Source of the DNA: Tubulanus polymorphus
Lineage: Eukaryota > Nemertea > Palaeonemertea > Tubulaniformes > Tubulanidae
Length of the DNA: 64,000 nt
NCBI RefSeq assembly: GCF_964204645.1
Contig: NC_134025.1
Location: forward strand, 24,954,001 to 25,018,000
Direction: 5' to 3'
The notes below the pieces were generated by a model. That model had not been told where the DNA came from, ran no database searches, and saw nothing but the letters and a program-made list of their open reading frames with translations. Each line of letters opens with the position of its first letter. Positions within the stretch are counted from its first letter, which is position 1. The translations under genes were made by a program, and so were the position numbers. Of this stretch, positions 1 to 49,184 are shown piece after piece.

Positions 1-999
1 CGTCTGTGATTATTCAGTCGACGTGCAACTGACGCAGTTGAGGAAGGTATTAAAATTGATACAGTGATAATAGTGCTTCACTGACTTCCCGGGGAGTATA
101 GAATTTATCCGATCAAGTCGAACTACTTTTCTCGGCACTCTCTGAGCTGTGACTTGTCGCGGATTAATACTAGTCATCTCGAGAGCTGATTGGCGCATGT
201 TTCTCAAATTTTTTTCGCATCGTGCGAATGTATTTGTTCACGGGCACTCGAAGATTTCATGATACACTTAGCATCGATTTGAAATTTCAGTAAAACTCAG
301 AAAAGATTCCCGCTTTCAGATAGGTCTTTGGAAATTTTTAAGTTTTTCGTTCGATTTTGAAAATATAGAATTCTATATCCATTTGATTTAGAGATAAAAC
401 GTTTTGCTTATCTAATGGCAGTTAACGAATTAATTCAAATATATCCCCATCGATCATTTCTAGACCTGTCATTTCTCCGTGTTACACCAATATTTCTAAA
501 CTCGCACGTGCAAATCCGATATGTAGACGCTCAATTCAAAATCAAGTGAGTCGTTTGGCGAGGAAATCGAGTATATTTGTAATCGAATCGCGGTTTTCCT
601 GCACGCGATGGTAATGTGTGGGTAAGGGGAAAATATGTGGACGGATGACTTGGTCAGATTGCATGCTAACGCAGCAGCAAGTCATAAACCAGGAAAATCG
701 CTTCATCATTATTCAATTTCTAACCGTCGTTTCGATTAGCATAATGTATAGAACTGATACTTCATTCTGTTTAAAGACTGAATTAACACGTCCATATATT
801 CATCATTAATTGAATTTCTAAACTGTTTCTATGTAGGCTACTCGACTCGTATTGAATACCAGTCAGTAACATGTCTGCGGTTTAGTTTTACGATCATAGA
901 TTTTCACAAAGACCACCCGATTATAAAAGCTTACCACCAACGATTAGGTAACTAACTAATTGAATACATGATGAATGATTCTGTGTTTGGATTCTTTAG
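1..999. other. 5' flank or first intron of the tailless gene
   Basis: This stretch precedes the first secure tailless exon. It is AT-rich and has no recognisable gene. The exon beginning at 1000 needs one base from an upstream exon (phase 1), so exon 1 lies here or beyond the window. One frame-compatible candidate runs 635-680: ATG at 635, then MWTDDLVRLHANAAA, leaving one base before a GT at 681. It would give a residue string ending [12 protein letters not shown], loosely like the start of insect tailless. Its donor (GTCATA) is poor, so I do not adopt it. Confidence 0.5.
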
Positions 1000-3900
1000 G
1001 TGACCGCCTTCTGGATATTCCGTGTAAGGTTTGTGGCGATCGAAGTTCTGGTAAACATTATGGAATATACAGTTGTGATGGTAAGTGAAAAAATATTCGT
1101 ACGATCGACGTAATCTATGCCGGCAAACCACATATTATACGCAAAATAATGTAATTTTTAATGCGTTACTTTGATTTCACAATTGATCATCAATAATATA
1201 AAAAACCCGATTTCTTTAATGAAGACTCGATTCGTCTTTTTTCAAATTTTGTCACGGTATCGGTGTTGTCTTTCAGGTTGTTCCGGGTTCTTCAAAAGAA
1301 GTATTCATCGCAACCGTGTTTACACGTGCAAAGCTCAAGGTGATTCAAAGGGAAGATGTCCCATTGATAAAACACATCGTAATCAATGTCGAGCCTGTCG
1401 TCTTAAGAAGTGTTTTGAGGCCGATATGAACAAAGACGGTACGTTAGAATTTACATTTATTTTCATATTCAGCTACTTTTAAACTACTCCCGCCGATGTA
1501 TAAAAGGTTTAATATCCTTTTTAGTAGTTTCAATGTCGGTCTTTTCGTGGTCATGTATCGGTCAGTTTCAGAATGCATATTTTTTCGTATGGTTTTCTAC
1601 ATTCTCGCACCGCTTTGAAACTAGCGACGATTTTTGAAAGAAATGTATAAAACGGAACTGGTAATTGCAGTAATACAGAAATTTCCAAATTCACACAAAA
1701 ATGAAAATATAATATTAATAGAATCTGAGGCTAATTTGTGTGTCGGATCACTGTGAGATCTCGATGAACTTAAAATGTAACGGATCTTGCCGGAGGGAAT
1801 CCTTTGCGGTGTAAATTACATCAAACTTAGAATCTACAATTTTACTTGATTGGATTCGTTCGCGGGTCTTCTATTGTAGAATATTCGAGTGCCCTTACAA
1901 GTACTGGCGACAAAAGACGCAATATGCTGTCCGTCTGCCTTCATCTTGATTATTCATTTCAGGTCAATTTATCATTTAATGCACCGAGAACAAACGCCTA
2001 ACGGCTCCGAAATATCCCCCCGTCGTTTTATTGAAATTGACGAGCTCTCTAAACGTCTTAAAGCGAAACATTTGAGCCGTGTACCGAAGACGCGACAATG
2101 CCGCGTGGCGACTGACGTCTTCCTAAAAAAAGGAACACAACCTATTGATATCCGTGAAAAGCGCGCTGGGAAGAAAACGTCTGCAGGGGATACGTGCACC
2201 CGTGCGCGTGGACTTTTCTGTTCATTTCAGTGGTTTCCTATTCGAAAAGGATTGTCAATTAAACTGTGAAAAAGCCAGCATGTTTGCTTAAAGTTTGTAG
2301 CTAATTATACTGTGCATACACTTAGAGTACCAACCGTTCTAAGAATTTCATATTTATTTTTCTGATATTATGTGGAAGGTTTTCATAAACATATATATAC
2401 AGCTTATGAGATGGATCCCATTCGTCTGCGGGGACATGGTTATGAAAACTATATTTCTTTCTGAGATCGATTTCATCTGGCAAAAAAATTGCCTAAATGT
2501 CGACGATCGGTAAAAATATGTAACATGAAAATATATTGTATAAAATGGCTGAACGTTATTTGTTGGTGTAAACTGGTGGAAAATTGGCACGCTGCATTCA
2601 CTGCGAATGGTAAATATGAATTCGATAGCTGGGATAACTCGAGCGGAAGTGACAAGTTGGTGGATCTTTGACAGATCGACACTACAAGATCATCTAAGCA
2701 ACTTGGACCAGTTCAGCTCAATGAGGCGAGCGACAGGCATTTGACATTGCGCCAAATTGCGAATGATAATCAAAAGCTTCAATTTAGATTTGCTGCCGTG
2801 TGACATTGCCTTTTACCTGTCAATCTTTACTGCGTTAGCTTGTTCGTTTACTTCGAGATGCACCGTTTTTACGCGGGTTTATTTTCTTAAGCTTATCAGA
2901 TTTTTATTTCGTGTATTTTCCTACAATAGATTGAATATGTTACGTGCCGTCAGTTTGTACATGGGGCACCGTCCAAGTTTACAATTGATATCGACGTTCG
3001 TGTCTTTCATTGGATTCTTGGCTTCCATATCTGCTTTAGATCTAATCTTCTTAACTCAATCACATGAATTGATACCGATCTATTGGCTTGTCATGTATCT
3101 CTTAATCTGTGACTTAATGTAACCATGGTCGAAATACGCCCATGATGAGCCGTGCTTTAGCGGGCGTACCACGATCTGTCAACACAGTGGCTCAGACGAC
3201 GCTCTTTAGTGGGAAAGCTAACAACAAAATACAGCTGGTCGCATTGTGCGGAAAATTATACCGGATAAGGACGGTAGGAATAAAAGTTAAGTCGCTCACG
3301 ACAGAGGAGATGTTCATTTACCAGAATTCGTTGCCAGTTTTTCTCCCGAACAAGTTAACGAAGCTGAATGACTACGGCTAATGACGCCAGAAATGACTGA
3401 CGTGGAAAATGATACATTAGACAAAGGGCAGGCTGTGTAGCACGCAGCTCCTGTTCTCCGAACGAAAAAAAATATTTCTTAAAAATTATTATTATTATGA
3501 TAAGGTGGCAGGTAGAAACTTAGATGATGGAAATGTATATCCATCAATTGTGTTAATCGAATTCAAGAAATAATATCGTTTTGGATAGATATTTTCAGAA
3601 TAATATCCCGCAATTAATCAGCCAGATCTAAAAAAAAGCTATGGGAAACACAAATATCCGCCTAACCTGACGACACACAGCCTATCCGTACGGCGGTGAA
3701 ACCGGTCGGAATTATAGAATATTTCAAACCGAGAGTTCCCGATTGATTTCTAGACACGGAAACTTAACGACCGATTCCCGGGGTCGATTCGAAATCCTCC
3801 TCGAACCAGAGAGACTTTTGACTGTATCGACAAACCAGTTTATCACAGAGCCTCTTCGTCAGCGCGCGTGGAGAGTTCAGTTTCATTGGACATCAACATC

Positions 3901-6900
3901 TCCTGTCACATATTGATGATGTAGTTTTACTTTAAAGACCGTCTGACATGCGTGTGGTTTCTAGTGACAATAAATCTATAAGAGCCCCGTCATTCACGTA
4001 ATAATCCATGCAACCAATTGGCTGTTCATCGCCCGACAATTGGCTGTGCAAGAAATGCATGCTTCTGTCTCTTTAAACGAATAATGAGTTAGTTATTTGA
4101 AGGTATTCTTATGGGACCGTATACTGATTTGATAAACAATTTTTTTCTGATATCGTACGTAATATATATCTTAATCATTGGTCTTGATTAAGATTAGACT
4201 ATCTTATAAATATGAACATATTATTTCATTTTTGAGAAAATAAGCTAATTTTGGATAAAAAAAATATTCTCCCTGAGTACGTTTTGTACTCGACGTTCAA
4301 GGCTCAGTGCTATTCAGATATATAAATTTCTGCTTGTGGTTTTGAAACATGTGGTCGTCATTTTATTCTTGCCGCCGGGCATCATAAGTGACATTGATCT
4401 TTTTAAATTCAACTTGGAAACATAATGAAAGGATTGATGACGGTTGCACACTTTAATTGGTAAAGTGAAATCAAGCAGTTGCCAGGTTAAATTGATTTCT
4501 TCAGGCAACATTCGGGATTCGCCACGCTTTTCATGGTTCACCATCAAATGCGACTTTTTAAAGAAATGAATTTACGAGCAATTCACCTGTGACCCGAAGA
4601 CACGAAACTGTTTGATAAGCAAACACAATGATTGGCGACATCTGCTGAGTAAATTCCAAATGGTATAAAATTTTCAATAGATTTTCCAATGCGGGGCAAT
4701 TTTTCGTAAGATCTTGGATTTACTAATCGAGATGAAATCTTGTAGATCGTATTTAAGCTGAACGAAGACCTTTGAAAGAAATTGAGGTGCAAGAAATTTC
4801 AAAAATAGCTCTCGTTCTTATCATTTCAGCTGTGCAACATGAACGAGGCCCTCGAAAACCTAAAAGCAAATCAAATGATTCTCAGCAAATGCTTTCTTCT
4901 GGTGGCTCTTCAAAATCGGCTGAAAGTCCTATAGATCTGAGTTTAACGTGCCGTGGGGACATGTCACCATCATCAACGCTATCGCCTGAGCCCATCTTGT
5001 CGGCTTCTTTTCTGCAAACGTTGCTCGTAGCCGAGCAGTATCAGGAGTCGCCGATAACTTGCCCGTTGCAGATTTTACCGAGCATCGAACAGCCAAAAGT
5101 CCAGAGTGAACCGTCAGCATTTCAAGTGCCAACAATCGCCAGAGAATCGCTACAAGAGGTGACTGCTCGGATGTTGTTTGCAATTATCGGATGGATCAAA
5201 CACGTACCTTCGTTCAAAACGTTACCAAGTAGAGATCAGGTAAACACATTTTAGGCAATAACGATGTAGGCAAAATGTATTGTCTAAACAAGTGTAAAAA
5301 TGGGCTCTTAGTTAAAATTTTGTTTGATTTGGTTATTTGGCCAAGTGAACTAATCCCTAGTCTCGATTTTGAAACTTTACCCATAGGAAATCGATATTCA
5401 ACGCACAACATCTCAATCCGTCGGTTTATATTATTCTTTCATTTGCAACCTTTTTAATCCACGTCATTTCTAACGGCAAAACAGTATATATAACCATGTT
5501 GTAGTATACGTCATTTCATGAATTTTTCCACCTGTTCGACCGCTAGAAAATACGTGGGTGGCTATGCCGCCGATCTCCCACTGAGATTCACTTTCGCTTG
5601 TCACAATTGTCTTCAGAATTGGCAAAGATCCTTCGGGAAATTCTCAATAACATACGTACAATATGATAAACGGTGCACACGCGCCGTAACCACAACGGAG
5701 TTTGAGAATAGATTTGAAACATCGGGGGACCATAGATTTTATTACGCAATGAATGATAGACCGATAGTTATTATATAGTTGGTTGCATTTCGTCCAATCG
5801 TATACTGAATATGAACTAGTTTTGGCCCCGGTCACGACGTAATCAATGCGAATGTAATTAACAAATCTTCGCTCTTCGTTCACTTATCTGAACATCGGCT
5901 CGCTCGAAGTAAGAATGGCACTTAATCAACACCCAATCGAGTGAATGGTTGTTAACATAATCAAGAGCATCTTCGTATAATATCTTAAGCGTCCTTCTTA
6001 ATTACTTATTGTCTGATTGTAACCAATACAATATACCTAAAACAAGAATACGCAATCAGATGTCTGTCCGTTCCCTCAGACAAAATCACAACATCAAATC
6101 ATTCACTACAACAATAATCACAATTGATGGATTAGCATTTCACTTTGCATAAACACATGTAATAAAACCCTTCAGTTTAGTGTCTAGTCTGTGTTTGATA
6201 AATGTATCATATATTGGGACCAGTACCAACTTTGTAATCTTTCAACTCTAAACACTAAATTAGTGTCAAATTTACTGGGTTCTAGTTCAATTTTGTTCAG
6301 TTGAAAATTGGAGTAAAATTCACACGACGTCTAAAGAATCCGTGTACATCATATTTTTCTAATTCATTTTTTAGATCATCTTGTTGGAGGAATCGTGGCG
6401 GGACTTATTCATTCTGAGCCTGGCCCAATGGAGGGTACCCCTAGAAGTACAGAGTATACTCGACTGCGCAAACGTCTCCCGAGAACACATCGGAAGCGAG
6501 AAAATGGCGACATTTTTATCAGATATTCGCTACATTAAAGACGTAGTCAGCAGATTGTTACAGTTCAACGTCGACATCACCGAGTATGCTTGCCTTAAAG
6601 CCATTATCATATTTAGACCTGGTAAGAATTCATTTTTTCAATCACGCTTGTAATTTGTTTTTATGTAATTCGCAGGGCTCTTTTGTCTCTTATGTGCCCG
6701 TGCTAGAGACCTAGGGTAAATCCATGCATTTTGAAATTGATATTGAAAAGTTGCCATATATCATCATCTCAATCATTACAAAATTATTGGGTATAGGGTA
6801 AAAGTTATTTCTTTTCAGTCAAAAGTTAAAAAGTGCTGATCTAGCGTCCCTGGTAATTGATTGATACTAAATGTTAAATTCCTATTTATGGCTATTTTGC

Positions 6901-7153
6901 AGAGACTTTTGGTCTTCGCGATCCGAGTAGTGTGGAGACTTTACAAGATCAGTCGCAGGTGATATTGGGCGATTATATTCGTCGGGTTTATCCACATCAG
7001 GCGACCAGATTCGGTAAGCTGTTACTGATACTTCCGTGTCTGAGGGGTATAAGCTGTAACGCTATAGAAAGACTGTTCTTCAAAGAGACAATCGGCGAAA
7101 TCCCAATCGACCGACTTATTTGTGATATTTACCAGAGCGACAAGTTACAATAG
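1000..7153 (+). CDS. NR2E1: Tailless/TLX orphan nuclear receptor (NR2E1), 5' incomplete
   Basis: DNA-binding transcription factor of the tailless/TLX family, known for control of brain and neural progenitor fate. Coding exons: 1000-1080, 1277-1438, 4830-5239, 6375-6621, 6903-7153, stop TAG at 7151; phases agree at all junctions. About 383 codons are present against about 385 in human TLX, so only a few N-terminal residues are missing. Exon 1000-1080 carries the first zinc finger ([18 protein letters not shown]); the next has the P-box CSGFFKR, the second finger and [12 protein letters not shown]. The following exon opens with AVQHERGPR, the tailless C-terminal extension, then a low-complexity hinge. 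The last two exons hold the ligand-binding domain ([26 protein letters not shown]; ending [12 protein letters not shown]). Oddity: nine residues lie between the first two cysteines of the second finger (KAQGDSKGR). Family assignment is secure; orthology is by protein similarity only. Confidence 0.96.
1439..4829 (+). other. Large third-to-fourth exon intron of tailless
   Basis: A 3.4-kb intron separates the zinc-finger exon from the hinge exon. Open frames at 1889-2269 and 2757-3122 are not flanked by a matching exon structure and resemble no family I know. The second is hydrophobic but unconvincing. Introns of this size in developmental regulators often hold enhancers, but I see no specific site that I can defend. 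Confidence 0.6.
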
Positions 7154-7314
7154 TTTCTTGGAGGAGCGAAAACAAATTAATTTATACAAAAAGCACTGCA
7201 AAATTATGAGTACAATTTGATAACGGAAATCGTAAGTTAATTTCCAATGATTTGGCTCCATATGCTCCAATAGTCGACATGTTAAAGCTAAGTGGTCGAT
7301 GTTGCAGTAATCAT

Positions 7315-7320
7315 AATAAA
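7315..7320 (+). promoter_or_regulatory. Candidate polyadenylation signal of tailless (proximal)
   Basis: AATAAA lies 162 bp after the tailless stop codon. A second AATAAA is at 7720-7725, which would give a longer 3' UTR of about 600 nt. Which one is used cannot be told from sequence. Confidence 0.5.
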
Positions 7321-8979
7321 GAAACTATATAATTTTGCTTATTCGAACTGTACACGATGTGACGAATTTAAAACTGAGCATGAGATCTTAATTAAATTCA
7401 AACGGGTTGAATTCTTTATATTGAGCTGAGAGCATTGCATGACATGCTGTATATAAACCTATATCTGACAAATGTTAATAATCATTATTTATTTATTTTA
7501 CAAATCTATTTATTTCATTGTTTTATGTATAAAGTATTTGTAATCACGGCTGTTGTAAATGAATATCAACGAGGTCCACGTACACACCGCTGAATTGCTC
7601 ATTCATAAAAAACCCTTCAAAAACATCATTAAGGGACACGAGAAGCTACGTAGAAGAATTTGATATCATGTACTGATGTAATATATAAATTAGATTTATG
7701 TACGCATGTATATATGGAAAATAAATTATTGAGTTGTTATTTATGAAAAAAAATTACTGACTGTATTTTGGATTTTTGAAATTCATGTAATTTTTCCTGG
7801 TTGTGCAAAAATCTCTCATTTACTCGAGACGGGTGCGGTTATTTTACATTTATGGGAAGAAGCATTTCGACACGGCAAATCTAAACAGACTTGGATTTAA
7901 ACTATAGCCATGATTTCCAGAAGAGCGAAGAGTTTGTTAACAATGAGAAGATCTTCAATTTTTGAGAAGTGAAAAATAACCAGTTGAAAGAAAACCAGGC
8001 TATTTCTTATTACACATGTGAAATGCAGTTCCCAGTTAAGAAAATATAACATCATAATGAACCGTCAGCTTATTACTTAGGATTGATATTTCAATCAATA
8101 TATTAGGTGGTATAGTCAATTACCGGGATAATTAGATTCTTTTATAAATTGAACATGATTTGCAACTGCTGTTAGCCGCGCACATATGATAAATAAGCCG
8201 AGGACAATATTCGATTTTTGAAAATAGCGCATCAAGTATCATACGAAAAAATGACTAGAGGATATTCTTTCTTAGTGAAAATAAGAGAATAATGAAGTAT
8301 TTATCCAATCGAAAAGTGATATTTGAAGGTTCGGTAAAATGTTTACTTTACATCAAAGGTAAGTGTGTGTTGGACTGCGCTCGGACAGTTTCTGAGATCC
8401 CGTGATTGTCTTTGTCAAAGCCGATGAAGAAAGATCAATTTGCCGCTAAAAGAACCACTACAAAGCAATCGATGATAACTCAGAGGAGGAAGATGAAATC
8501 GTGGCTGCAGTCAGCATCCGTTGCTGCGTTAAACGTGGGAAAGCGACATACATTTGATGCTTGGCCGTGTAATGCGACGGTAGGATCAAACTATTAGCAA
8601 ATCGTTTCAGCCGTTCCCTCAAAAAGACACTTAGAAGAGAGATGTGAGCATTATGCCCTTAAATGTTTGCCAAACAATTTACCTTAATATGTTCTGTCTC
8701 GGCTTAGAAATTATCGAACTTCTCAGAGGGTTATCTTCAGTCAGTGGCAAACAGGCGGAAAATTCGCTCTCTCGGCGAAATAGGACTCTCACTGGCAAAT
8801 CATTTGCGGCAGTAGACACAGAAGTTCTCTCATAAGTGAAAGGACAAGTTCTTCAAATGGCACGCTCATGTATATTTTATTAGGCTTTATTTAGCTTGCG
8901 GTGGCAAATTTCAATTTGCAGTATTCGTTTCCAGAGTGGAAGCACACTCAGTAGTCAGTAACGTGTCAGTTCGCGACAC

Positions 8980-8992
8980 TTTCCCGCCAAAA
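8980..8992 (+). promoter_or_regulatory. E2F-like site upstream of ORC3
   Basis: TTTCCCGCCAAAA matches the E2F consensus TTTSSCGC and its A-rich far half. It lies about 760 bp before the ORC3 start codon, within a short CpG-richer patch. ORC genes are known E2F targets in animals, so a role in S-phase transcription is plausible. If so, an untranslated first exon probably ends in the 9.0-9.7 kb interval. Confidence 0.5.
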
Positions 8993-9743
8993 CGTCCCTC
9001 GGTAGACGCTGTGTTCGGAGGCAATACGTGTCTAACGAGGTGGTTTTTGGTGATGGGTTTTGAGAGTTAAGCAATCATCTTGATGCCAACAAATGACATC
9101 AGTCATTCTAATGACTTCAACAATCATGATCTTGTTAGAGTTGTTTGCTTTGGTTGTTTGTTGATTTGCAAAAGACCACAAAACCGAGCAGCGGGCCCTT
9201 GATTCGAATTACGACTAAAACTCGTGACCATGTTTGCTCGGTGTTCGCATTTTGAATGAAAGAATGAAAGTAGGCTGTTTCAGGAAAAAATTGGTTTCGA
9301 ATGCTACAGCCTCCAAAAAGGAATGGTTATCTCAAATCGAAATTTAGATGTGTGAGATATCAGGCCCGAAATCGATTTCAACAATTCCGGCGGTAGCCCG
9401 CAGAGTCCGTGCCCATATACATATTCCCGATCCCTCGAATAGCGCGGCGTGATTGCAACTTTTACTAGACTCGAATCCCAAAAATATACAAATATTAAAT
9501 CTGTGATGAATCTATAAAACGATTAGATAAAAACGATACTGTCATATATTCATATGATATTTGTCTTTAAAGAATCGGTGTATCTATTTGTGTTTTGTTA
9601 CTACTGACTTCCTTCTTTTTTGAAAGTCGCCCTGGCAAGTGAGTAGGTTCTCCACACTCGAACGCGGAAGTTTCAAGTTCATGAATGAAATTTGTTGTCA
9701 AACACAATAATTCCGCAATCTTTCCGCATTTATAGCTTTTACC

Positions 9744-15123: not shown

Positions 15124-16173
15124 ATGAATGTCACTACTATATTTAAGTCTTGTGATGAACTGAGACCTCCCGTTAAATGGGATTATCAGTTAAGCGTTTA
15201 CTTATACATATTCGTGTATGGACCTCTAACTGTTGTCGGTATTTTCTCCAACATCGTCAGTTTATTCGTATTCCGTAGACTTCAAAATCCGACCTATCAT
15301 ACAATCCAGATTTTGGCTATATATGACACTTTATTCATAAGCAGTGCTTTTCTGATGTATCCATTCAGAATTATTTACTTGTATATTGTGCTTGGTGATC
15401 TTATTCTAAGATTTGACGACTGGCATTTCGGTCGGGAAATTATCTTGCCTGTTCTACCGTTATTTTACACATTTCAAACTTTACGCAATTGGGCAGTCGT
15501 TGTTGTGAGCGTTGAAAGACTAATAGTTGTTGCTTTCCCTTTGAAGCACTTAGCTTTTTGGATGAAAAACACGAAAATGTATCTGACCTTATTCATGGCA
15601 TTAATGTTTGTAGCGTTACATTGGACGTATTTCTTTCCTAGATATATTCCAATACTATGGAAATGGCAATGTTTAAAACGAGGCCAGTATGCATTTACCG
15701 TTAATTTACCGCTGAATTCCGAGACGTACAACATATTTGTCTACGACGTACTTGCGGATGAAATGAATTATTTTCTATATCTGATTGGGACAATTCTAGC
15801 ACCGTTTATAATTCTTATGATCAGTAACATCATACTTATCTTCGTTGTTTGGCGGGCGAAACGTCTACGAAAAGATCTCGGTGCTCGTGGAAGTGAAACT
15901 AAACATGACCGAATCCTGCTTAAGATGGTGCTATCGATTGTAGTTGTTTACTTTATTTGTGAATTTCCAGCTTGTATTGATAGGCTTACGTGGTTGATTG
16001 GAGTTCCTTTCATAAACGAAGACATCGCTATGATAATTCGCAAAATCGGTTACGTTTTGACGATAGGGGATTCATCTGTAAATTTCCTCTGCGCTACAAA
16101 CGATTCGTTCAAATACGAAGCGCGACGCAATTTTGCAAAATTACTCAAATATTGTAAGCTATACAGATTCTGA
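15124..16173 (+). CDS. Intronless class A (rhodopsin-family) GPCR 1
   Basis: A single-exon, 349-aa seven-helix plasma-membrane receptor. Helices lie near residues 24-50, 59-85, 105-139, 151-171, 213-243, 265-290 and 299-325. There is a short extracellular N-terminus with an NVT glycosylation site at residue 2 and Cys10. Class A landmarks are present but altered. ECL1 has the W-x-F-G motif (residues 100-103), but the disulfide cysteine expected at the start of helix 3 is replaced by Ile. DRY is ERL (131-133), and CWxP is CEFP (279-282). Compared with its two neighbours it has lost two codons (Ile-Tyr) in helix 7, at the position of the NPxxY tyrosine (SSVNFLC instead of SSVNFLIYC; junction at 16089/16090). 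The start matches the neighbours' starts. Overall feel is peptide-type (FMRFamide-receptor-like), but the ligand cannot be named. The helix-7 deletion could impair G-protein coupling. Confidence 0.85.
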   Translation: MNVTTIFKSCDELRPPVKWDYQLSVYLYIFVYGPLTVVGIFSNIVSLFVFRRLQNPTYHTIQILAIYDTLFISSAFLMYPFRIIYLYIVLGDLILRFDDWHFGREIILPVLPLFYTFQTLRNWAVVVVSVERLIVVAFPLKHLAFWMKNTKMYLTLFMALMFVALHWTYFFPRYIPILWKWQCLKRGQYAFTVNLPLNSETYNIFVYDVLADEMNYFLYLIGTILAPFIILMISNIILIFVVWRAKRLRKDLGARGSETKHDRILLKMVLSIVVVYFICEFPACIDRLTWLIGVPFINEDIAMIIRKIGYVLTIGDSSVNFLCATNDSFKYEARRNFAKLLKYCKLYRF

Positions 16174-16786: not shown

Positions 16787-17863
16787 TCAGTGGCCAGATA
16801 CAAGTTCGTTTTCAGAATTCGATTTCGTCATTAATATGTTGCGGTACAATTTCAAAAACATCTGACGCGCTACGAGTTTGAATGAATCGTTCGTAGCGCA
16901 ATAAATGAGAAAGTTTACAGACGAATCTCCCATCGTTAAAACGTAGCCGATTTTGCGGATGGCCATCGCAATTCTCTCGTTCATGAAAGGCACTATCGCC
17001 CGAAACCGGTCAATACTAGCTGGAAATTCTAAAAAGATATAAACCGCTACGATCGACAGAACCATCTTGAGCAAAATTTGTTCCTGTTTATTTTGACTAT
17101 CAGTGGAGATGAGCTTCGCTCGCAGACGTTTCGCTCGCCAAACAAAGAAGACAAGTAAGATGTTACTGATCATAAGAATCATAAATGGTGCTAGAATTGT
17201 CCCAATCAGATATAGGAAATAACTTATTCGATGCACAAGTGTATAGTCATAGACAAATACTATGTATCGCTTCGGATTCAACCAAATGGTAAATGCATAC
17301 TGGCCTCGTTTTAAACACGGCCAATTCCACTGTATTGGAATATTCTTAGGGAAAAAATAAGACCAATGTAGAACAACGAATGTTAACGCTAGGAATAAAC
17401 TTAAACAGATTTTCGTTTTTCTCCTCCAGAAAACCATATGTTTCAACGGGAAAGAAACGACTATCAATCGCTCGATGCTCACAACAACGACGGTCCAATT
17501 GCGTAAAGTCTGAAAAGAATAAAATAACGGTAGAACAGGCAAGATGATTTCCCAGCCAAAATGCCAGTCGTCAAATCTTAAGATAAGATCACCGAGCACA
17601 ATATACAAGTAAATAATTCTGAATGGATACATCAGAAAAGCGCAGCTTATGAATAATGTATCATATACAGCCAAAATTTGTATCGTGAAGTAGATCGAAT
17701 TTTGAAGTCGATGGAATACGAATAAACTGATGATGTTGAGGAATATACCGACAACAGTTAGAGGTCCATACACGAATATGTACAAGTAAACGCTCAACTG
17801 ATAGTCCCATTTAACAGGAGGTCTCAGTTCATCACAAGACTTAAGTGTAGTAGTGACATTCAT
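16787..17863 (-). CDS. Intronless class A (rhodopsin-family) GPCR 2, inverted copy
   Basis: A single-exon receptor of 358 aa, in opposite orientation to its neighbours. I start it at the Met whose context (MNVTTTLKSCDELRPP) matches paralogues 1 and 3. An in-frame upstream ATG at 17998 would add 45 residues that have no counterpart in them. It keeps the full helix-7 string SSVNFLIYC, has ERL in place of DRY and LEFP in place of CWxP, and lacks the helix-3 cysteine after WHFG. The C-terminal tail is longer than in the others (ending NELVSGH). Residues from the end of helix 3 through the second extracellular loop are identical to receptor 3, with near-identical DNA (see findings). It was probably produced by duplication with inversion and later partly overwritten by gene conversion. 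Confidence 0.87.
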   Translation of the reverse strand: MNVTTTLKSCDELRPPVKWDYQLSVYLYIFVYGPLTVVGIFLNIISLFVFHRLQNSIYFTIQILAVYDTLFISCAFLMYPFRIIYLYIVLGDLILRFDDWHFGWEIILPVLPLFYSFQTLRNWTVVVVSIERLIVVSFPLKHMVFWRRKTKICLSLFLALTFVVLHWSYFFPKNIPIQWNWPCLKRGQYAFTIWLNPKRYIVFVYDYTLVHRISYFLYLIGTILAPFMILMISNILLVFFVWRAKRLRAKLISTDSQNKQEQILLKMVLSIVAVYIFLEFPASIDRFRAIVPFMNERIAMAIRKIGYVLTMGDSSVNFLIYCATNDSFKLVARQMFLKLYRNILMTKSNSENELVSGH

Positions 17864-18508
17864 TGCCAACGATGCATACAGCTTCTTTAAATGATGCAAT
17901 TCAAGAGATTTGAAAGCCCAATTACTTTTACAATAGTAATAACTTTCGAACCCGTGAAGATCGATAGAATTCAACATCCTTCGCATAATTTGCAGCATTC
18001 ATTTCTTTATCATATCATTTACAACATTGATTTACATACGAACACAGGTTTCAGTAACATTTTTATTGCATTGAAATTTCATATCACTATCTGAAAATAA
18101 GTAGCATCATGAAAGAATTGCATCTACTGTCACTTCAGCTCACAATGATGGATCAACGAAAGGCGGACCATGTAGAATTATCGTACTGACTGTACAGCTA
18201 GAACAGCAGAGCCAACAGATTAGTGATATCATATGAGATACCCTTCCTAAGATAAATCATGATATTTGTCATCGTAATCTAAAAGTTAACTAATATAAAA
18301 ATTCCGTGCGTGTCGATCAGTGTATGTATTCTGGATATAAGGAATCACAGATTTTTTCCGTAGTTATGGATTTTTTATATTGACTAATAAATATAAATTG
18401 CTCGGAGGTCTTTTCTGATTGGTCAATCTGAAACTGATTTTTCTATCTTCCTAAATTGCAACAATGTGATAAAGGTTTAATACTGGTTTATATTCTAAAC
18501 GGACAGCA
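17864..18508. other. Head-to-head spacer between receptor genes 2 and 3
   Basis: This 645-bp spacer separates the divergent starts of receptors 2 and 3. It includes the optional 45-codon upstream extension of receptor 2 (to 17998) and the ATTGG-containing block near 18413-18440 before receptor 3. No other gene is visible. Confidence 0.5.
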
Positions 18509-19558
18509 ATGAATATCACCACTACATTTAAGTCTTGTGATGAACTGAAACCTCCCATTAAATGGGATTATCAGTTGAGCGTTTACTTATACATATTCGT
18601 GTATGGACCTCTAACTGTTGCCGGTATTTTCCTCAATGTAATCAGTTTGCTCGTGTTTCAACGACTACAAAATCCGACCTACCATACTATTCAGATTTTG
18701 GCTATATATGACACTTTATTCATAAGCTGCGCTTTTCTGATGTATCCATTCAGAATTATTTACTTGTACATTGTGCTCGGCGATCTCATTCTAAGATTTG
18801 ACGACTGGCATTTCGGCCAGGAAATAATCGTGCCTGTTCTGCCGTTATTTTATACTTTTCAGACTTTACGCAATTGGACCGTCGTTGTTGTGAGCATCGA
18901 GCGATTGATAGTCGTTTCTTTCCCGTTGAAACATATGGTTTTCTGGAGGAGAAAAACGAAAATCTGTCTAAGTTTATTCCTAGCGTTAACATTCGTTGTT
19001 CTACATTGGTCTTATTTTTTCCCTAAGAATATTCCAATACAGTGGAATTGGCCGTGTTTAAAACGAGGCCAGTATGCATTTACCGTTTGGTTAAATCCGA
19101 AGACATACAACATATTTGTCTACGACTATGTCCTTGCAGATAAGATTAATTACTTTCTATATCTGATTGGTACAATTCTAGCTCCGTTTATAATTTTAAT
19201 GATCAGTAATATCATACTTATCTGCGTTGTCTGGCGGGCGAAACATCAGCGAAAAACTCTCGTGGCCGCCAGCAGTCAAAATAAACAGGAACAAATGTTG
19301 CTTAAGATGGTTCTGTCGATCGTAGCTGTTTACTTCATTTTAGAATTTCCCGCTTGCATCGATAGGCTAACGTCGATTATCGGCGTAGCTTTCATTAACG
19401 AGAGAATCGCTATGATCATCCGCAAAATCGGCTACGTTTTAACGATGGGAGATTCGTCTGTAAACTTTCTCATTTACTGCGCTACGAACGATTCGTTCAA
19501 ATACGAAGCGCATCGAATTTTTGTAAAATTACGCAAACGTACGCGGAAACCGACGTAG
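18509..19558 (+). CDS. Intronless class A (rhodopsin-family) GPCR 3
   Basis: A single-exon, 349-aa seven-helix receptor, the most intact of the cluster. It starts MNITTTFKSCDEL with an N-linked site at residue 2. It has WHFG in the first extracellular loop with no following helix-3 cysteine, ERL at the DRY position, one cysteine in the second extracellular loop (WPCLKRGQY), LEFP in helix 6, and GDSSVNFLIYC in helix 7 as a degenerate NPxxY. AATAAA at 19735-19740 lies 177 bp after the stop. Closest relative by eye is receptor 2 in the middle and receptor 1 at the N-terminus (both share NPTYHTIQILAIYDTLFIS), so the cluster is mosaic. Ligand unknown; a neuropeptide-type receptor is a guess. Confidence 0.88.
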   Translation: MNITTTFKSCDELKPPIKWDYQLSVYLYIFVYGPLTVAGIFLNVISLLVFQRLQNPTYHTIQILAIYDTLFISCAFLMYPFRIIYLYIVLGDLILRFDDWHFGQEIIVPVLPLFYTFQTLRNWTVVVVSIERLIVVSFPLKHMVFWRRKTKICLSLFLALTFVVLHWSYFFPKNIPIQWNWPCLKRGQYAFTVWLNPKTYNIFVYDYVLADKINYFLYLIGTILAPFIILMISNIILICVVWRAKHQRKTLVAASSQNKQEQMLLKMVLSIVAVYFILEFPACIDRLTSIIGVAFINERIAMIIRKIGYVLTMGDSSVNFLIYCATNDSFKYEAHRIFVKLRKRTRKPT

Positions 19559-19782: not shown

Positions 19783-20602
19783 ATTTATGATAGGATAATA
19801 CTTTTCAAACATTACACAATATGACAGTCGTTGTTGTGAGCATTGATGATTGATAGTCGTTTCTTTCCGTTGAAACACTCTTTTCTGGAGGGGGAAAACG
19901 AAAATCCGTTTTACTTAACGTTCATTCAATTGCCTTGGTCGTATTTCATACTCGATGTATTCCAATACTGTGGTAATGGCTATCTAAAATGAGGTCAATA
20001 TGATTTAACTATTTGGTTGAGTTTTTTCAATGCCTTGAATGAAACATTTTCTATATCCGATGGGGAAAATTTAAGCACCATTTATAATTCTCATTATTAT
20101 CAACATCTCATTCATTGTCGTTGTTCGGCGGACAAAACGACTCCGAAAAAAATCTCGATAGTCCTAATAAAGAGGAAAAAATGCTGCAAAAGATTATTCT
20201 GTCGATCATATCTGTTTATTGTTTTTTAGAATTTCCAGCTTGTATTGGCAGGTACACAGCGATCATGCATTTTATGGACGACGGAATCTCTATGGCCATC
20301 CGAAAAATTGGCTACTTTAACTGGTTAAGGTGGTTCAATCGAATAAAGTGTTTACTTCATTATAGAATTCCCTAGTACTTGTATCGATATAGGCTTACAT
20401 CGATAATTGGTGAACCTCTCGTTGACGAAAGATTCGCTATGATATTTTGCAAAATCGGTTATATTTCAATGATGGGAGATTCGTCTGTTAACTCTTTTTC
20501 ATTTTCTGCGCTACAAACAATACATTTAAACGCAAAGCGCGATAGATTATTTTTTTGTTGTAAAATTACACATGTATATACATATACGCGGACATCGACG
20601 TA
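19783..20602 (+). pseudogene. Broken, chimeric fourth receptor copy
   Basis: Sequence alignable to receptors 1-3 from the end of helix 2 onward, with many frameshifts and stops. 19783-19900 matches the helix 3 region (the string coding TVVVVSI is intact, then frame-broken). 19930-20110 matches helix 4 to helix 5. 20130-20320 gives a helix 6-7 segment, VYCFLEFPACIGRYTAIMHF then AIRKIGYF, closest to receptor 2. A second helix 6-7 segment follows at 20350-20560: VYFIIEFP, TSIIGEPLVDERFAMIF, ISMMGDSSVNSF, closest to receptor 3. So two different receptor 3' ends lie head to tail. The N-terminal third of a receptor is missing. No intact product is possible. Confidence 0.85.
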
Positions 20603-20754
20603 GATTCCGGATTTTCGTGTTCGTATCAATATTCAAAAATTTCTTTACGGAGAGATTAACCTGGAAATCATGATAAAGTTGAATACTATCTCCAGAAAAA
20701 GATTATACACATTTACATTGGAACCACAATCTTGGGAATTTCTGTTTTGATTTA

Positions 20755-23700: not shown

Positions 23701-26074
23701 CTTCATATATACGAGGAACTATGTACTACTTTCACCGCAGAAACTTCGTCCACCTTTTTTTAAGATTCATATCCCCAGGACGCCACAGAATTTGGATTTT
23801 GCGGAAAAAACCTTCTTTCGTTAATTTTTGGTTATGTCACAGAAAAGTTGGTGAAAAATTGCTAATGGAAATTAATTATCTGTGAGAAAAAAGAGAAAAA
23901 AACACTGCAAAAGAAAAATGTGTGTATCATGTCCCCAGGGCGCTTTTCGTAGAACTAAACCCACTGCACACGAGCGAAATTGCGATGCGCAAAGTTCGTA
24001 CGCATTTTGTCCATCGCACGCATGGCGGAAAATACACCCAATAAAGGAGTCACAAATGTGGAAAAATCTCGGGCAGACTATGCGGGAACGCTGTTTGTTC
24101 GATCATTTTTTCGAATCCATTTCGCGTAAAACTCCGCCGAGATAAAAAGCTAAGCAACGGCACTCAATTTTGCTGGACGAGACGCTACTTTACTAACGGG
24201 ACTCCTTATCATTTGATTGAGTTATGATTGGTATTTATGATTGGCACCGGCACGATTTTTCCTTCCTTAGGTAGGTGTTATTGGAAATATCAAGAGTGAC
24301 AGCGAACAGTGATCGAGGAGAAATTAAATTGAATACGCCTAATGCGTTTGTCGTAAAATACGTGATTGTGGACCATCGACCTCGCTATTTTTGTCAAAGC
24401 CAGCTCGTATATACGGATTACATCTAATATTGAATACCACTGAAGAACCAAATCTACACTGCTGGTCTTGTCAGATTATATGCCAGTAATAGGTTATTCA
24501 AGATAGTCGAAGGGAAAATTCCGAAGCCATTATCTATAAACAACGTAAGGTGTATACAATATATGCGTTTGGCTCGTAGAATTTATGCATCTCGCATTTT
24601 GAATAGGAACTGATTCTAGCAGAAAACTGAAAAACATTTGAGCTACTTCAGTGCAGTACAGCAATGCTAAAGGATTTTCACGTATACACCGCAAGTTTAT
24701 TTTTTGTCACAGAAGGTTAATGGACGTGCACGAGCAATTTTTGTTTTAGCAGATTCTCGAAAATTTTTATCACTCATTCACTTCAGATTGCAGTGTTCTT
24801 ATGAAAATCAATTGAATTATTCATAAGACACACAAGTACTTCGAAGAGACCTTCAGTATGATAAGATGAGACCCCGCTTGTTTTTCAGTAGACGCTAGAT
24901 TTGTTCCCACTCGGAACTGACGCCCGAGGACGTGGATGGCATCACGATACCAATTATAAAATGTCACTTTTCACTTTCTGCTTTGAATGTTCAAGCTATT
25001 TATAGATTATTTTCCTCGCGTATTATATTTGTTATTCAAAAATAGCTACTAACGCAGGGCAGGCCATATACACAAAATAAAACGCGTTGCAAAACGATTT
25101 TCGAATATCTTCATCTAACATTAGTAATCAATCTCGATAGATATCTATTCAATGACAAAAACAACATACTCCTCGGGCGAAACGTATCAACATTACGAAT
25201 GGTAATTTAGTGGGATGAATTATTTTCTAACTCCGATCAAAATTGTTACTGCTGAGAAATAACAACAACGTGAAAACGTGATGAAATAGAATATCTATAA
25301 AAAAAACCATCGAAAACAAAGTAAGCTCATGAATAAAATTGTTGATTCATTTCACTGGTTTTAAAAACCGCAATGAACGTAAACTTTCGACAAAAAGTTA
25401 CCAATTCACGTCGCTTACAACTGTATGAAGAGATAAGATTCCCCACGGTCAATGAGAGAATCGACTTACCTGCCTGATAATAGTATTGAAAGCTTTTGAT
25501 TACAGGGAGATCGATACTCCTCAGCGTATGTAGCACCTTTACTTAAAGTCGTTATCCGAGCAGAACTGACCATCTCTTTAAACATTTTCTTCGGCAGTTT
25601 GAATGGCTTGAAAAACTGATAAAGGTTTTCTAGTTCGGGGTCAATTTTTACCGGATACTCGTGACGCCCGTAGTAAAATAACTGCACAACGTTGATGACG
25701 AAAAACGCGAGATTCCAACTCATCACGTCCCACATACACATGTACATGCCTCCCCATAGAATCAACAGCAACGATCCCATGGATAGGCAACTGCGCACAA
25801 GCATCACATTGTATTTAAATCTGTTAGGTACCAAAAAAGCCAAAGCAAGGCATAAACTGCCGATTTGATACAGAGTATGTTGGGTAACTATCCAGTTTTC
25901 GCATGTCTCCTGGTCTGTTTCGTTATGCGACGTATGATTTGAGCCATTCACAATAGTAAAATTGATGTATGACTGAGCTGTTGCCGATGCGAAAAGCCCA
26001 TCGATCCCGACTGTTTTGTAAACGCTTTCATTCTGATGGGATACGTTTTTGTTTTCTACGACGACGTGATCCAT
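20755..26074 (-). CDS. POPDC: Popeye-domain-containing protein A (cAMP-binding membrane protein)
   Basis: Popeye family: three-pass plasma-membrane proteins with a cytosolic cyclic-nucleotide-binding-like Popeye domain, linked to muscle and cardiac function and cell contact. Exons in coding order: 26074-25470, 23404-23290, 22970-22501, 21082-20755, stop TGA at 20755-20757; phases agree; 505 aa. The N-terminus has six N-glycosylation sequons (Asn 10, 15, 38, 43, 46, 51), then three hydrophobic helices (about residues 60-135). The Popeye domain runs from SILLSGR|MKVNC through QYVDSPEYEAYQP and GNYQ|VTITAVEDCR to MGKDITVKLYQVQELL. The DSPE core of the cAMP pocket is kept, but the usual following Trp is Tyr, and FQVT is YQVT. 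The long serine-rich tail is poorly conserved. The last exon is placed from frame continuity and splice signals only and is the least sure part. The 2-kb first intron and 1.4-kb last intron hold nothing recognisable. Confidence 0.9.
21577..21606. repeat. Perfect 10-bp hairpin in Popeye A last intron
   Basis: CTACGAGCAA and its exact reverse complement TTGCTCGTAG are separated by a 10-base loop. Flanks ACTCAG and GAACTCAG add a direct repeat. It could be a small foldback remnant or chance; no function is assigned. Confidence 0.4.
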
Positions 26075-27575
26075 GAGGTTACTATAACATGTGGAACCAC
26101 AAATGCCATCACATCGGCGTACTGGTTTACGATCAGTTGTTTTACCAATACCACTGAAATGACAAACGATCCAAATATAGTCATGAAAATACTAAAATTG
26201 TATCGTTAGTTTTAAATGATGTTAGATCAGTAAATTCTGCCATCTGCATTTTATTCTACCAGTGTCATAAATGGAGAAATTATCTTAGCGCGAAAACTTT
26301 CGCTTCAGTTCATTTCCGGTAACGAAGAAACAGAAAAGGGCATTACGAACTGATATCAGATTTCGAAAGATACCGTTAATAGATATTTTTTTATAAATAA
26401 ACTCGACGAAAGCAGTTTATCCCATGCGATGATACAGTACGTATGTAGTGGAGCAAATTTTCTGATACGTCCCCACCCTGTTTTATAAATAACAATACGG
26501 TGGATGCGATACTTTATCATTGTGACGTCATATGTATATGGATTAGCTATGCCGTAAAAGGCCTTGTGACATGAGTAAAAAAGTAAGGATACATCAAACG
26601 GCACCAAGAAGCAGTAATATGAAAGATGAGTTAACGCTGCCAGTGTTCTTCGCAAACATCAAAGGATCGCTTATTCTTTTGATCGTTTGAAGTTAAAAGC
26701 ATTTCGATGAAATTCTAAGTTTCGGAAGGGTTTATGGCATGAAAATAATTGCAATCGAAGTTTCTGGTCTTGCGTTCGTCGCAAAGCGTCCTACATTTGT
26801 AGCGTATTTTTTTCGGGATTTACTACATGTATTTCCCAAGCGCTCGCCTCGCGTTTTCATTAACATCCTCACAAGAAAAAAGTTGGACTGCGTTCGTAGT
26901 CAACAGAACCTAGCGGGCACATTCTACACAAGACGCCACACTCAATCAGTCTTTGATTCACGATGCCCTGCAGTGAAGTCCTCGGAACGTTATGAAAAAA
27001 AGCATTTTTAACACCAGACCCGTAGCAAGACATGCCTGAAGGACTGACTCAAATAACACTGAATGATATGAAATGAAAACGTTGCTGACACTGGCAAACG
27101 AAGCTGTTTATTTTGCTGCAATGAATTTGTATACATTGACGACGACATATGAGCCAACATAACTTTCTGACAACATCGTAACTATCACAGGCCTGCTCAA
27201 TCTATTTCAAACATTTCCATTTTTGCCCACGAAGTAAGAAAAAAGCCATTTACATATATGTATATGTCCTATCGTATGTCATAGCTTTGTGAAAATACTT
27301 CTTTATCAGTACTTGCATAGGGGAAAGCCAATGTTTATTCGGTAATGTGTTTTCGTCGGGCGATAATTTTATCGCGTCAACTCCCCTGACGGTGACAATA
27401 AATGATTTGATACAAAAAACTGTGATGAGACCTTTGACGAACGGAGAGTCTTTTGTTTCCTATGGTACTTCCGTCATCAGCATTGTCAACTTTTACAAAA
27501 AAAATCCATAGTCAGAATTTTTGATTCTACTGAGTACATGCACATGATTTGAAGAAATACGATAGAAAGTAATAA

Positions 27576-28098
27576 AAGAAGCTTCCAGTTTCTAGGCGCC
27601 ATTTTGTGGCGGTCCCTCGAGGTCCCCTTGCTGCGAAAAATCAAATCTCAATGTTCAGTGAATTGGCGGTGCGCGTAATCTCAAACTCAAGCGGTTAAAG
27701 ATCTGTTGTCAAGAGAGATATTCCAAAAACAAATTCAACCGCAAACCCAAATTGCAAATAACGGTCTGTAACCTCTGAAAACATGGGAATTGTAGCTTAA
27801 ACCGATACTGGGATATTTCAAAATGAATTAAGTTCGCAATTTTTTGACGCGTGGATGAAGTATGCGGTCCTTGCTTCATATCGTCACTGCTCTCGATGTT
27901 GCGTTCGAAAAAAACCTGAGAATTACCAACAAAAACCTGCATTTAATTTCCTCTGAAATAATTTATGAATTAAGTTTATCAAGCAAGGGAATGCAAAGCT
28001 AATTGATATTCTATCAAAACTAATTTTTTCAAAAGAGGGGGTAAACTATAGACCTCCAGGGACGCCACAAAATGGCGCCTAGAAACTGGAAACTTCTT
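27576..28098. mobile_element. Non-autonomous element with about 50-bp terminal inverted repeats
   Basis: Arms at 27576-27625 and 28050-28098 are inverted copies of each other with only a few differences. Both read AAGAAG, CTTCC or TTTCC, then AGTTTCTAGGCGCCATTTTG and TGGCG. The roughly 420-bp interior has no coding capacity. The outer flanks are A/T-rich (AATAAA on the left, TTTATT on the right), so the target-site duplication is unclear. The structure is that of a MITE or short foldback element. I do not recognise the terminal sequence as belonging to a named superfamily. Confidence 0.75.
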
Positions 28099-28501
28099 TA
28101 TTTCACAAAACGTTTCCTGACTTAAGAATGCGTTTTGCAAAATTGCTTTCCTTCAACATTGAAGAGTAGGTGTCGTAAGCGCACGTCATTATCTCAGCGA
28201 GGTCAGACGCGGGACTTGTTCTTAATAAAAGAGTATTTTTTTCGCAATTCGATATTTCAGACATAGTGTAATAAGATACATGCGTATGATGCGCCCGTGC
28301 GTCTCGAGAGTGACACATAGCAATCTCGATCCCAATTACCATTTACGTGTTACATTAAATAATGTGTCGTCTGGATAGATTCGTTTAGTTGCTGTCTATT
28401 ATTATCTGCTCGGCTTCACGATCCGTAATACAGAAATAATTGGCCAATTAGAAATGGGTTGATCGATGTTATTGCTTGTACAATTTCAGGTAGTTCTATA
28501 G

Positions 28502-45376: not shown

Positions 45377-47216
45377 TTAGACTTCAATCTGTGTAATTCT
45401 GTTCAAATTATTCGGTTTTCCATTGGTAAATTTCGTCGGGAACGGTTTTCCTTCTTCGTCTGCAGTAAATAAAAAGTAGAAAATACTGTTTAAACGTTGG
45501 CCTCGCGCAGGCGATATACACGGCATAACGGGAACATTGAGCTTTATACTTAGTTCGTCGAATAAGTCTTCGTCTTCCAACTCTTCTGGATTATCGGCGA
45601 CAGTAATCGCTGTTGAGTACGACTGGTTCTGATGCATAGAGATTATCCGCCTGTTGAACACTGACGGGCGTCTACTATCGCCAGGAGGAATCATAGCCGT
45701 TACGCTCGGCAATCGAACATCAATCCGCGATCCACGATTTTTTAACTGCAACGAAAAAAATTCCCAATTACGAAAGGACTTGGCGGAATTTTGTATTTTT
45801 CCGTACATTCGAATGATTACCCTTTCGTTCAAAGCGTACAGTTTGTTAGTGATGTCTCGCCCGATCAAAGTAGCCATTATTGTGGCTAGATAAGGTTCTT
45901 TGATAAACAGGTATTGTAGAGCATCTCTTTGCCATAACATGTAACGACATGGTCCAACAGCTATAATCGTCACCTTCGAAAATCAATTATCAAAAATTTA
46001 TTTGCATTGTGATTAATCAATGGTCTTTGATTAAGTACTTCATTTTCGGTTGTACCTGATATTTCTCTTCTCCTGTTGTCGTGCTCTCGAATTCGGGCGA
46101 GTCTAGAAACTGTTTCTCGTGAATATGATGGAGAAACTGGTTGTTTGACATCACAGAAACGCTGTAACGGAAGATTCCCGCAGGCGTGTGTGAAATGCGA
46201 TAATTTCATTAATTGATATACTAATGATACACGCGAAATCTGATGCGCTGATGATTACCTTCCACTAATTAACAAGCCAAGTCTGTCTGTTCTAGTGACA
46301 CCCTGTGTGGCGTAACACTCCCCGGGATACATGCTCAATACTGTCGCGTTTTCAGTGCACGTCAACTTCTTCACTAATTTCCTGCCAAATAAACCCAGCA
46401 ATTATAAAGTGGCTGACTTAGACAGGTGATAGAAGAAAATCATATTCAAAAAAATATATATCAACCTTATTTTCGTATAAAAAGGTCCAAATCAGCAGGT
46501 AGCAAGTTTGACGTAATACCCGAATACGATCCCTACAATTCAAGTTTACGATTCAAGACTAAATTAGTAAGACAAAGCTATATTACCTTGATACTTTCAG
46601 CGGTTGAAAGAGATTTGTGTAAATTTCTTCGATTTCGGGCACGAACTTTATGGCTTTTAAGCGATACATAATGAAAAACACCTGCACTGCATTGAGCAGA
46701 ACAAATGCAAAATTCCAGGAGAAGATATCCGGCGCACAGAGAACGACCCACGCCCATGTGCAGAACAGCAAGAATCCTGGATAAGAAATTAAACTCTCCA
46801 ATGATTTATCTTTTACATCTACCTTTTTACATTTCCATAGCTACGGTTACGGAGATGTCAAATAACCTACCAAATAGTAGCCCTCCGTGGAGTAGAAGCG
46901 ATCCAAAAACGCCATGAGGTGCCAGGTATGCGATTAGGCAAGCAACATTTGCAATTTGAAATACGACGTGGTTCGCAGAGTGCCATCCCTGGCATCCCGT
47001 AAAATGGGCACCAATAAGTTCATGTTCCCAGGGGTTATCATTATGCAAGGAATGGTTGAGTTCGTCATGTGGTTTCAGAGTATGCGAATGTTCCATCTCG
47101 TCTGGTCTGGTTAAATATAATTTTGATTTATTTGTAGACATTTCAAGAACTGATTTCGAGACTGAATGACTGTTGATTGATAACGATAAGAAACATATCG
47201 ATCCGATATCAAACAA
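45377..47216 (-). CDS. POPDC: Popeye-domain-containing protein B
   Basis: Second Popeye-family gene, same strand as A and about 19 kb away. Exons in coding order: 47216-46871, 46776-46587, 46381-46259, 46161-46056, 45973-45377 (stop TAA at 45377-45379); phases agree; 453 aa from the first ATG. An internal start at 47141 (MSTNKSKLY) is equally possible and would give 428 aa. The N-terminus has NKS and NHS sequons. Membrane helices follow (VVFQIANVACLIAYLA; HGVFGSLLLHGGLLFGFLLF; FAFVLLNAVQVFFIMY), then EIYTNLFQPLKVSRKLVKKL. The Popeye domain includes LLISG, FLHHIHEKQFLDSPEFES, KYQVTIIAVGPCRYMLW and LIGRDITNKLYALNERV. The cAMP-pocket aspartate (DSPE) is present; the usual Trp after it is Phe. 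Two introns that gene A lacks interrupt the N-terminal half. The tail (TADEEGKPF...) does not resemble gene A's. Confidence 0.93.
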
Positions 47217-49184
47217 AGTTTAATGTGGATTACTGAAAATCCGATATTTGATTGTAGCCGTCTACTCACATTATAGAGTATTGCAGCGTTTAGAGCGCTG
47301 TACTGCACCGTTGTATCAGCATCACCAGGAAAACTACCACTGCAACTACTAGTGCTAAAACCAAAAGCCACCAACATAAATCGATATATCAACTGACAGA
47401 CAAAATGCATTACTTAAAAGCTAAAAAGCTATCCAATAAGATACCAATACCTACGCGAGTTGCGGATTAGATATGTCTAAAACATCTTGATTTTGACTGC
47501 AACATCCTCATGATGCGAGCACTGATACTCCTGACTCCATCAGTAACACTACAGATTCCGCTCGCTTGGTGTCGCTCTCTGGAGCAGCTGAACATTCGCG
47601 CGTTCATCCATCATCGACTTGCCATCAATCCTCGGAGATGTGCATCATGGAAAAACAATTCCTCGCAATTCAGCATTCAGTGACAGCTTTACCTTCTCGA
47701 ATGTCTTTGCTGAGATGTTCACATGTTGTTCACAACACTTGAGAAAGACGTGCCAGATGACTGGTCGGGAAAACTCAGCCGCTGGGACTCAAGGAATCTC
47801 ACCGTCAATACCGGTACTACAAATCATCTAATAAGTTAGAAATAGCGATGATTGATACAGAAGAGGAATGAAATAATCCCTTTCTTCACATATACATATA
47901 TTCTTCGTTTTTTTTATGAGCCTGGCGTCTTTCGTTGAAAATAGCGGCAATTCGAGAAACGCACTGGCACGGGACCCAGAGGTCCTGCGTGTGGCGCCCG
48001 GGGGCCGGAGGACGAGGTAAACTTCTGGTAAATTATCCGTTCCGTTGTCAATTCGACGAGCAGAGTGCATAGCAGGTGCGATCAGTGTTGCAAGTGCATG
48101 GCCGAATATATTTGAATCCCCGAAATCGTCGAGTGATTAAAGCACTAACTAGCCGGGCCCCGGCGCCTGGCCGGGTCACCCGGGCGGCTTCACGACGACG
48201 CTCTTCAATGGAGATCTTTCGCGGCGCTGGTCGCACTTATTCGAATTTGAAAATCTCTAAAATATACAAAATACTCTAAACTGAATTGGAGAAAGACTAT
48301 TGAAATGCTATAATCGAGTGTAATTCTGCGGAATATTGAGTACAGGGCTTATAATTGAGCTGACTTCGTTCGCCCAGATTAGTCCCCGATGCCAGCCGCG
48401 GCAGTAGAGTCTAACACGAATAGATTTTGATATTCTCGGAGCCACCCTTTACCCTATATCTCGTACACTAACAAATATTCATTTCCTGGTTTTGTTATTC
48501 GTAAATAAATTATGTTACACAGTGGCCCATTGATACTACATAAAGTTGTATTTGGTAAATATAGGTCTTTTGAGATATTTGTTTAATATATAGTCACTTT
48601 CGTCACTCGAATAGTAGTTGTTTACATCGGTATTTGTAGACAAAATTATCCCGGTGGGTCTCGGCCGTGCTAATTACCAACATTAAAAGGCTAACGAGTG
48701 ACATTTGCAGATAGTTTCCCCCTACTTATCCGTACTAAGGTTGTTAGGTTGTATCTAGAGTTATCGTAGATTAGGAAAAATAGGTAGCTCCAAACCTCCA
48801 ATTCTTCTAGAATGATCCCTGTGAGGACACAAGGTAATGCTTGAGAATACCTACTGTTAGTGTTGACTGTTGTTAGCATTGGGCCATTAGATTTGAAAAG
48901 GTCAAGGAGAAGGGTGTTGTAGTAGGTTCAGAGGGATAAGCTCAGAGATGAATTTGGTTTGCCCATCAAATATTGTACTACAAGTTACATAAGTGACGCG
49001 ACCACGCTTAGTATTTACTGGTCCCATTCATGATTTTGGGTTCACTAGGTGTGATTTAGGTCTTGGCAAACCTTTTCAAAAGATTCACAAAAAATGCTGT
49101 ATTCCCTCATTTTCAGACATATTGGCGTTCATCTTTAATAAGCACTGATTTCTGGTTACTGATTCGGTAGAACAACTCGTCCCA
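47217..49184. other. Divergent spacer between Popeye B and ARMC2 with a CpG-rich patch
   Basis: The two flanking genes point away from each other across 2 kb. Inside is a GC- and CpG-dense patch at about 47960-48240 (for example GCGCCCGGGGGCCGGAGGAC and GCCGGGCCCCGGCGCCTGGC) that stands out sharply from the AT-rich surroundings. It is full of short GC palindromes. It could be a shared promoter or CpG island, or a GC-rich repeat. No coding exon was recognised. Confidence 0.5.

Follow-up and report, generated by a model that had tools for sequence, protein, structure and literature searches.

A sharply bounded tract of near-identity in head-to-head receptor paralogues of Tubulanus polymorphus, with interlocus gene conversion as its very probable origin

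Ectopic gene conversion has been discussed for the Drosophila pairs Hsp70Aa/Hsp70Ab and Hsp70Ba/Hsp70Bb, which are tightly linked mirror-image paralogues (PMC3924832). In Caenorhabditis, conversion has been reported in inverted as well as direct neighbours, including the adjacent paralogues of hsp16, hsp70 and fog-2/ftr-1; there the lengths of surviving tracts are concentrated at 50-200 nt, averaging 117 nt across the genome and ranging from 12 to 2,958 (PMC3966223). Here we describe two receptor genes, R2 and R3, that resemble these systems in being adjacent, inverted paralogues. They lie in a window of 64,000 nucleotides (the whole stretch of DNA analysed) from the genome of the nemertean Tubulanus polymorphus.

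A cluster of intronless receptor genes

The cluster is composed of three open receptor genes and a decayed fourth copy. R1 (15124-16173, plus strand, 349 aa), R2 (16787-17863, minus strand, 358 aa) and R3 (18509-19558, plus strand, 349 aa) are intronless 7TM receptor ORFs whose lengths were counted from the homologous ATGs at 15124, 17863 (minus) and 18509; the open frame of R2 extends to 17998, beyond the ATG homologous to the starts of R1 and R3. R2 and R3 are arranged head to head, and their start codons are about 645 bp apart. When the whole window was compared with itself, R1, R2 and R3 appeared as full-length diverged copies and R4 (19798-20642, plus strand), which is absent from the first-pass annotation, was found after R3 in direct orientation. 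R4 has lost its 5' end, carries frameshifts and gaps and is about 62-71% identical to R1-R3 across most segments. Beyond the coding sequence and the DNA directly bordering it, the copies show little similarity to one another.

In a Pfam profile search R2 matched 7TM_GPCR_Srw (PF10324, 1.3e-9), R3 fell slightly under the cut-off for 7tm_1 (PF00001, 30.3 bits for a cut-off of 30.5) and R1 gave no match. Seven hydrophobic segments are resolved roughly at best; a SIERL motif (E-R after TM3) is present in the receptor sequence, and among solved structures R3 weakly resembles the serotonin 2A receptor in sequence (E 0.002). As single-exon, clustered ORFs, R2 and R3 are like the large, tandemly expanded families of intronless rhodopsin-like/Srw chemoreceptor-type GPCRs, and this family pattern suggests a chemoreceptor role for the R1-R3 family. 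R1 is without two codons of the TM7 motif (Ile-Tyr) as a result of a 6-base deletion and reads NFLCATN where R2 and R3 read NFLIYCATN; given this deletion and the lack of a Pfam match, the function of R1 may be impaired.

Elsewhere in the window we observed Popeye-domain (POPDC1-3) exons, apparently of two genes, at 25469-26191, 45380-45982 and 46830-47219 (minus), a nuclear-receptor zinc finger at 1162-1479 (plus) and a 54-base inverted repeat (27571-27624 and 28051-28102, 92.6% identical) that is possibly a small mobile element.

A sharply bounded tract in R2 and R3

The first-pass annotation had described a 230-bp block shared by R2 and R3 with one mismatch, set in flanks diverged at synonymous and replacement sites alike, with R1 different throughout, and had read it as recent gene conversion. 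These observations held in full. The tract occupies 17288-17517 of the minus strand in R2 and 18855-19084 of the plus strand in R3, and 229 of its 230 bases are identical; the sole mismatch, TTA in R2 for CTA in R3 within AAATCTGTYTAAG, is silent, both codons encoding Leu. On contig C1 the two blocks lie at 24971288-24971517 and 24972855-24973084. The tract corresponds to amino acids 117-191 of R3, starting in the second half of TM3, where the SIERL (E-R-L) motif lies, and continuing through ICL2 and TM4 to ECL2 including its cysteine. The ends are sharp, since differences between R2 and R3 start immediately outside on either side, reaching 42 of 346 positions (12.1%) in the 5' flank and 104 of 465 (22.4%) in the 3' flank, with replacements such as KRYI in R2 for KTYN in R3. 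Inside the tract R1 is 21-22% different from both R2 and R3. A genome search found no further close copy of the tract.

With one silent and no replacement difference, the tract has a dS of 0.021 (rough 95% range 0.0005-0.115) and a dN of 0, compared with a dS of 0.55 and a dN of 0.13 in the R2/R3 flanks. Its silent divergence is about 4% of the flank value, with the wide interval just given. The first-pass annotation had named a synonymous divergence as high in the tract as in the flanks as what would refute conversion, and this was not observed. Silent differences amount to 1/48 in the tract and 69/178 in the flanks (Fisher p=4.7e-8), and at the flank rate the probability of one or fewer differences at 48 silent sites is 1.7e-9. 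The GENECONV-style test suggested at first pass was run as column permutations, which presuppose exchangeable sites: none of 1,000,000 permutations was as extreme for R2/R3 (256 polymorphic columns), compared with 2,200/1,000,000 for R1/R2 and 80,335/1,000,000 for R1/R3, and when only R2/R3 codons for the same amino acid were used the count was 47/1,000,000 (4.7e-5). A longest-exact-run test on the silent codons of R2/R3 gave p=0.012, the lone mismatch splitting the tract, and was dropped for a mismatch-tolerant segment score.

Such a pattern might be expected if purifying selection at silent sites, through RNA structure, codon use or an overlapping element, had preserved the tract. Some segments of the receptor family are indeed above average in silent identity, with peaks near the intracellular loops, and one such bin (codons 135-149) falls inside the tract. 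However, the whole tract is not silent-conserved in other groups of the family, and the silent sites of R1 are close to saturation across the tract codons, with a dS of about 1.0-1.1 from R2 or R3 inside the tract and, for one 30-codon window, a silent divergence as high as 0.89. A shift in codon usage is no explanation either, because the GC3 of the tract (0.434) is within the range of the R2 and R3 flanks (0.41-0.48). The near-saturation of R1 makes selection at silent sites, which the first-pass annotation had also considered unlikely, very unlikely indeed, and we give it almost no credence.

The tract and its surroundings also support different gene trees. With R4, which is decayed and therefore an approximate outgroup, R2 and R3 share 13 derived sites in the tract and R1 and R3 share 1, whereas in the right flank without the TM7 patch described below R1 and R3 share 16 and R2 and R3 share 9 (13:1 versus 9:16, Fisher p=0.0007). 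Conversion from or to R4 was considered because R4 seemed nearer to R2/R3 over the tract's first half, and was rejected: with R4 as outgroup, mostly R1-unique changes explain the pattern.

Two weaker patches, both absent from the first-pass annotation, were observed in addition. One is a smaller patch of R2/R3 identity near TM7 with a 56-nt exact core, located at 16902-16957 (minus) in R2 and 19421-19476 (plus) in R3, and has p ~0.003 with the main tract removed; the other lies at the 5' end, links R1 and R2 weakly and has p ~0.002-0.003. Both values are uncorrected for multiple tests.

Origin of the tract

A bounded block identical at silent sites requires non-reciprocal copying. When inverted copies undergo a single crossover, the intervening DNA is inverted and the copies do not become alike. 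The silent-site contrast, the permutations and the gene-tree conflict support the first-pass reading, and we consider it highly probable that the tract arose by interlocus gene conversion between old head-to-head paralogues, with about 230 nt copied one way. The likeliest route would be that a break in one gene was mended by homology-directed repair from its neighbour, the segment from the end of TM3 to ECL2 being copied in one direction, probably recently. The single mismatch would then be a silent change that occurred since copying, or the halves of the tract may have been copied separately. Distances to R1 inside and outside the tract, compared in search of the direction of conversion, were confounded by regional rate differences and left the donor indistinguishable. 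The tract is of a known kind and is the product of a known process, so that it holds little surprise and reveals no new process.

The template need not have been the neighbouring gene. Because the genes have no introns and the family has possible inter-chromosomal tracts, conversion with a reverse-transcribed copy (cDNA) as template would look no different. No positive evidence points to a cDNA, however, and the neighbouring copy, 1.7 kb off, is a sufficient template, which makes this route improbable in our opinion. Alternatively, a third copy, since lost, might conceivably have converted both R2 and R3.

Near-identical inverted repeats can mislead assembly and polishing, and one tract could have overwritten the other in the consensus sequence. 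Against such an artefact, the flanks diverge by 12-22% over a few hundred bases, enough for any read that extends beyond the tract to tell the copies apart; the one silent difference between R2 and R3 survives; and the assembly resolves an inverted repeat elsewhere whose 3-kb arms are 99.3% identical. The diverged flanks and the separated repeat indirectly indicate that a collapse is unlikely, and we regard an artefact as a highly improbable source of the tract. No second haplotype copy of the R1-R4 cluster was found in the genome.

The receptor family and related systems

A protein search identified at least 117 matching places for the receptor family in the 268-Mb genome (77 contigs), and two additional searches led to further members; the next relative of R1-R3 in the protein search of their own genome is 44% identical. 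We tested 700 family pairs of 70-98% DNA identity for silent-site tracts with the mismatch-tolerant segment score, and R2/R3 was among the strongest. In the direct neighbours L084/L085 a 318-nt segment is 99.4% identical, compared with 88.9% outside. Tracts were also detected in L026/L028 (direct neighbours) and L015/L039 (35 kb apart), and possible tracts also link genes located on different chromosomes, as in L042/L050. Family tracts occur in direct as well as inverted pairs. At p<0.01 they were found in 3/7 near inverted and 4/32 near direct pairs (Fisher p=0.09); these pairs are non-independent and partly hand-picked, and we make no claim that inverted orientation matters.

In one subfamily (L008, L011, L016, L017, L040, L042, L043, L050 and L066, on C1, C3, C8, C10 and C11) the identity between chromosomes is about 82-90% for codons 60-110 (TM2-TM3) and mostly 54-73% for the region from codon 150 to the end. 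Amino-acid-corrected silent identity was raised at TM2-TM3 and near the intracellular loops in the groups tested, for which repeated conversion, constraint or the two together may be responsible. It is possible, and we suggest it only tentatively, that the R2/R3 tract is one case of segmental homogenisation throughout the family, with receptor genes exchanging short segments on the same and on different chromosomes, TM4-TM5 usually being left to diverge, and with mosaic receptors as the outcome.

Several other observations were made in the family. In L008, L015, L017, L025, L042, L043, L050, L065 and L066 (C1, C3, C10 and C11) TM2-TM3 (about aa 64-135) is strongly silent-conserved between chromosomes, and about 40% of silent codons differ outside it; this conservation may reflect repeated inter-chromosomal conversion or nucleotide-level constraint. 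L096 (C3:22.27 Mb) contains an inverted repeat (69-3101 and 6453-9501) with 99.3% identical arms of at least 3 kb, each with one receptor gene, and there are zero silent differences between the two genes. On C9, L047/L048, 596 kb apart, and the matches at 2841326 and 2990947 are identical or equally scoring receptor copies at distances of hundreds of kilobases, which may represent either a recent segmental duplication or a haplotype duplication in the assembly.

With its clear limits, the R2/R3 tract is a clean illustration of conversion in receptor paralogues arranged head to head, from an animal genome whose intronless receptor family is large. Mosaic genes must be reckoned with whenever gene trees, duplication ages or tests of selection are considered for this family. 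The Drosophila Hsp70 pairs differ in being heat-shock genes for a strongly conserved protein, whereas R2 and R3 are 12-22% diverged outside the tract. The Caenorhabditis cases concern other gene families, some of them with population or experimental-line data, whereas R2/R3 come from one assembly. Both the length of the 230-nt tract and its setting fit the published worm and fly cases.
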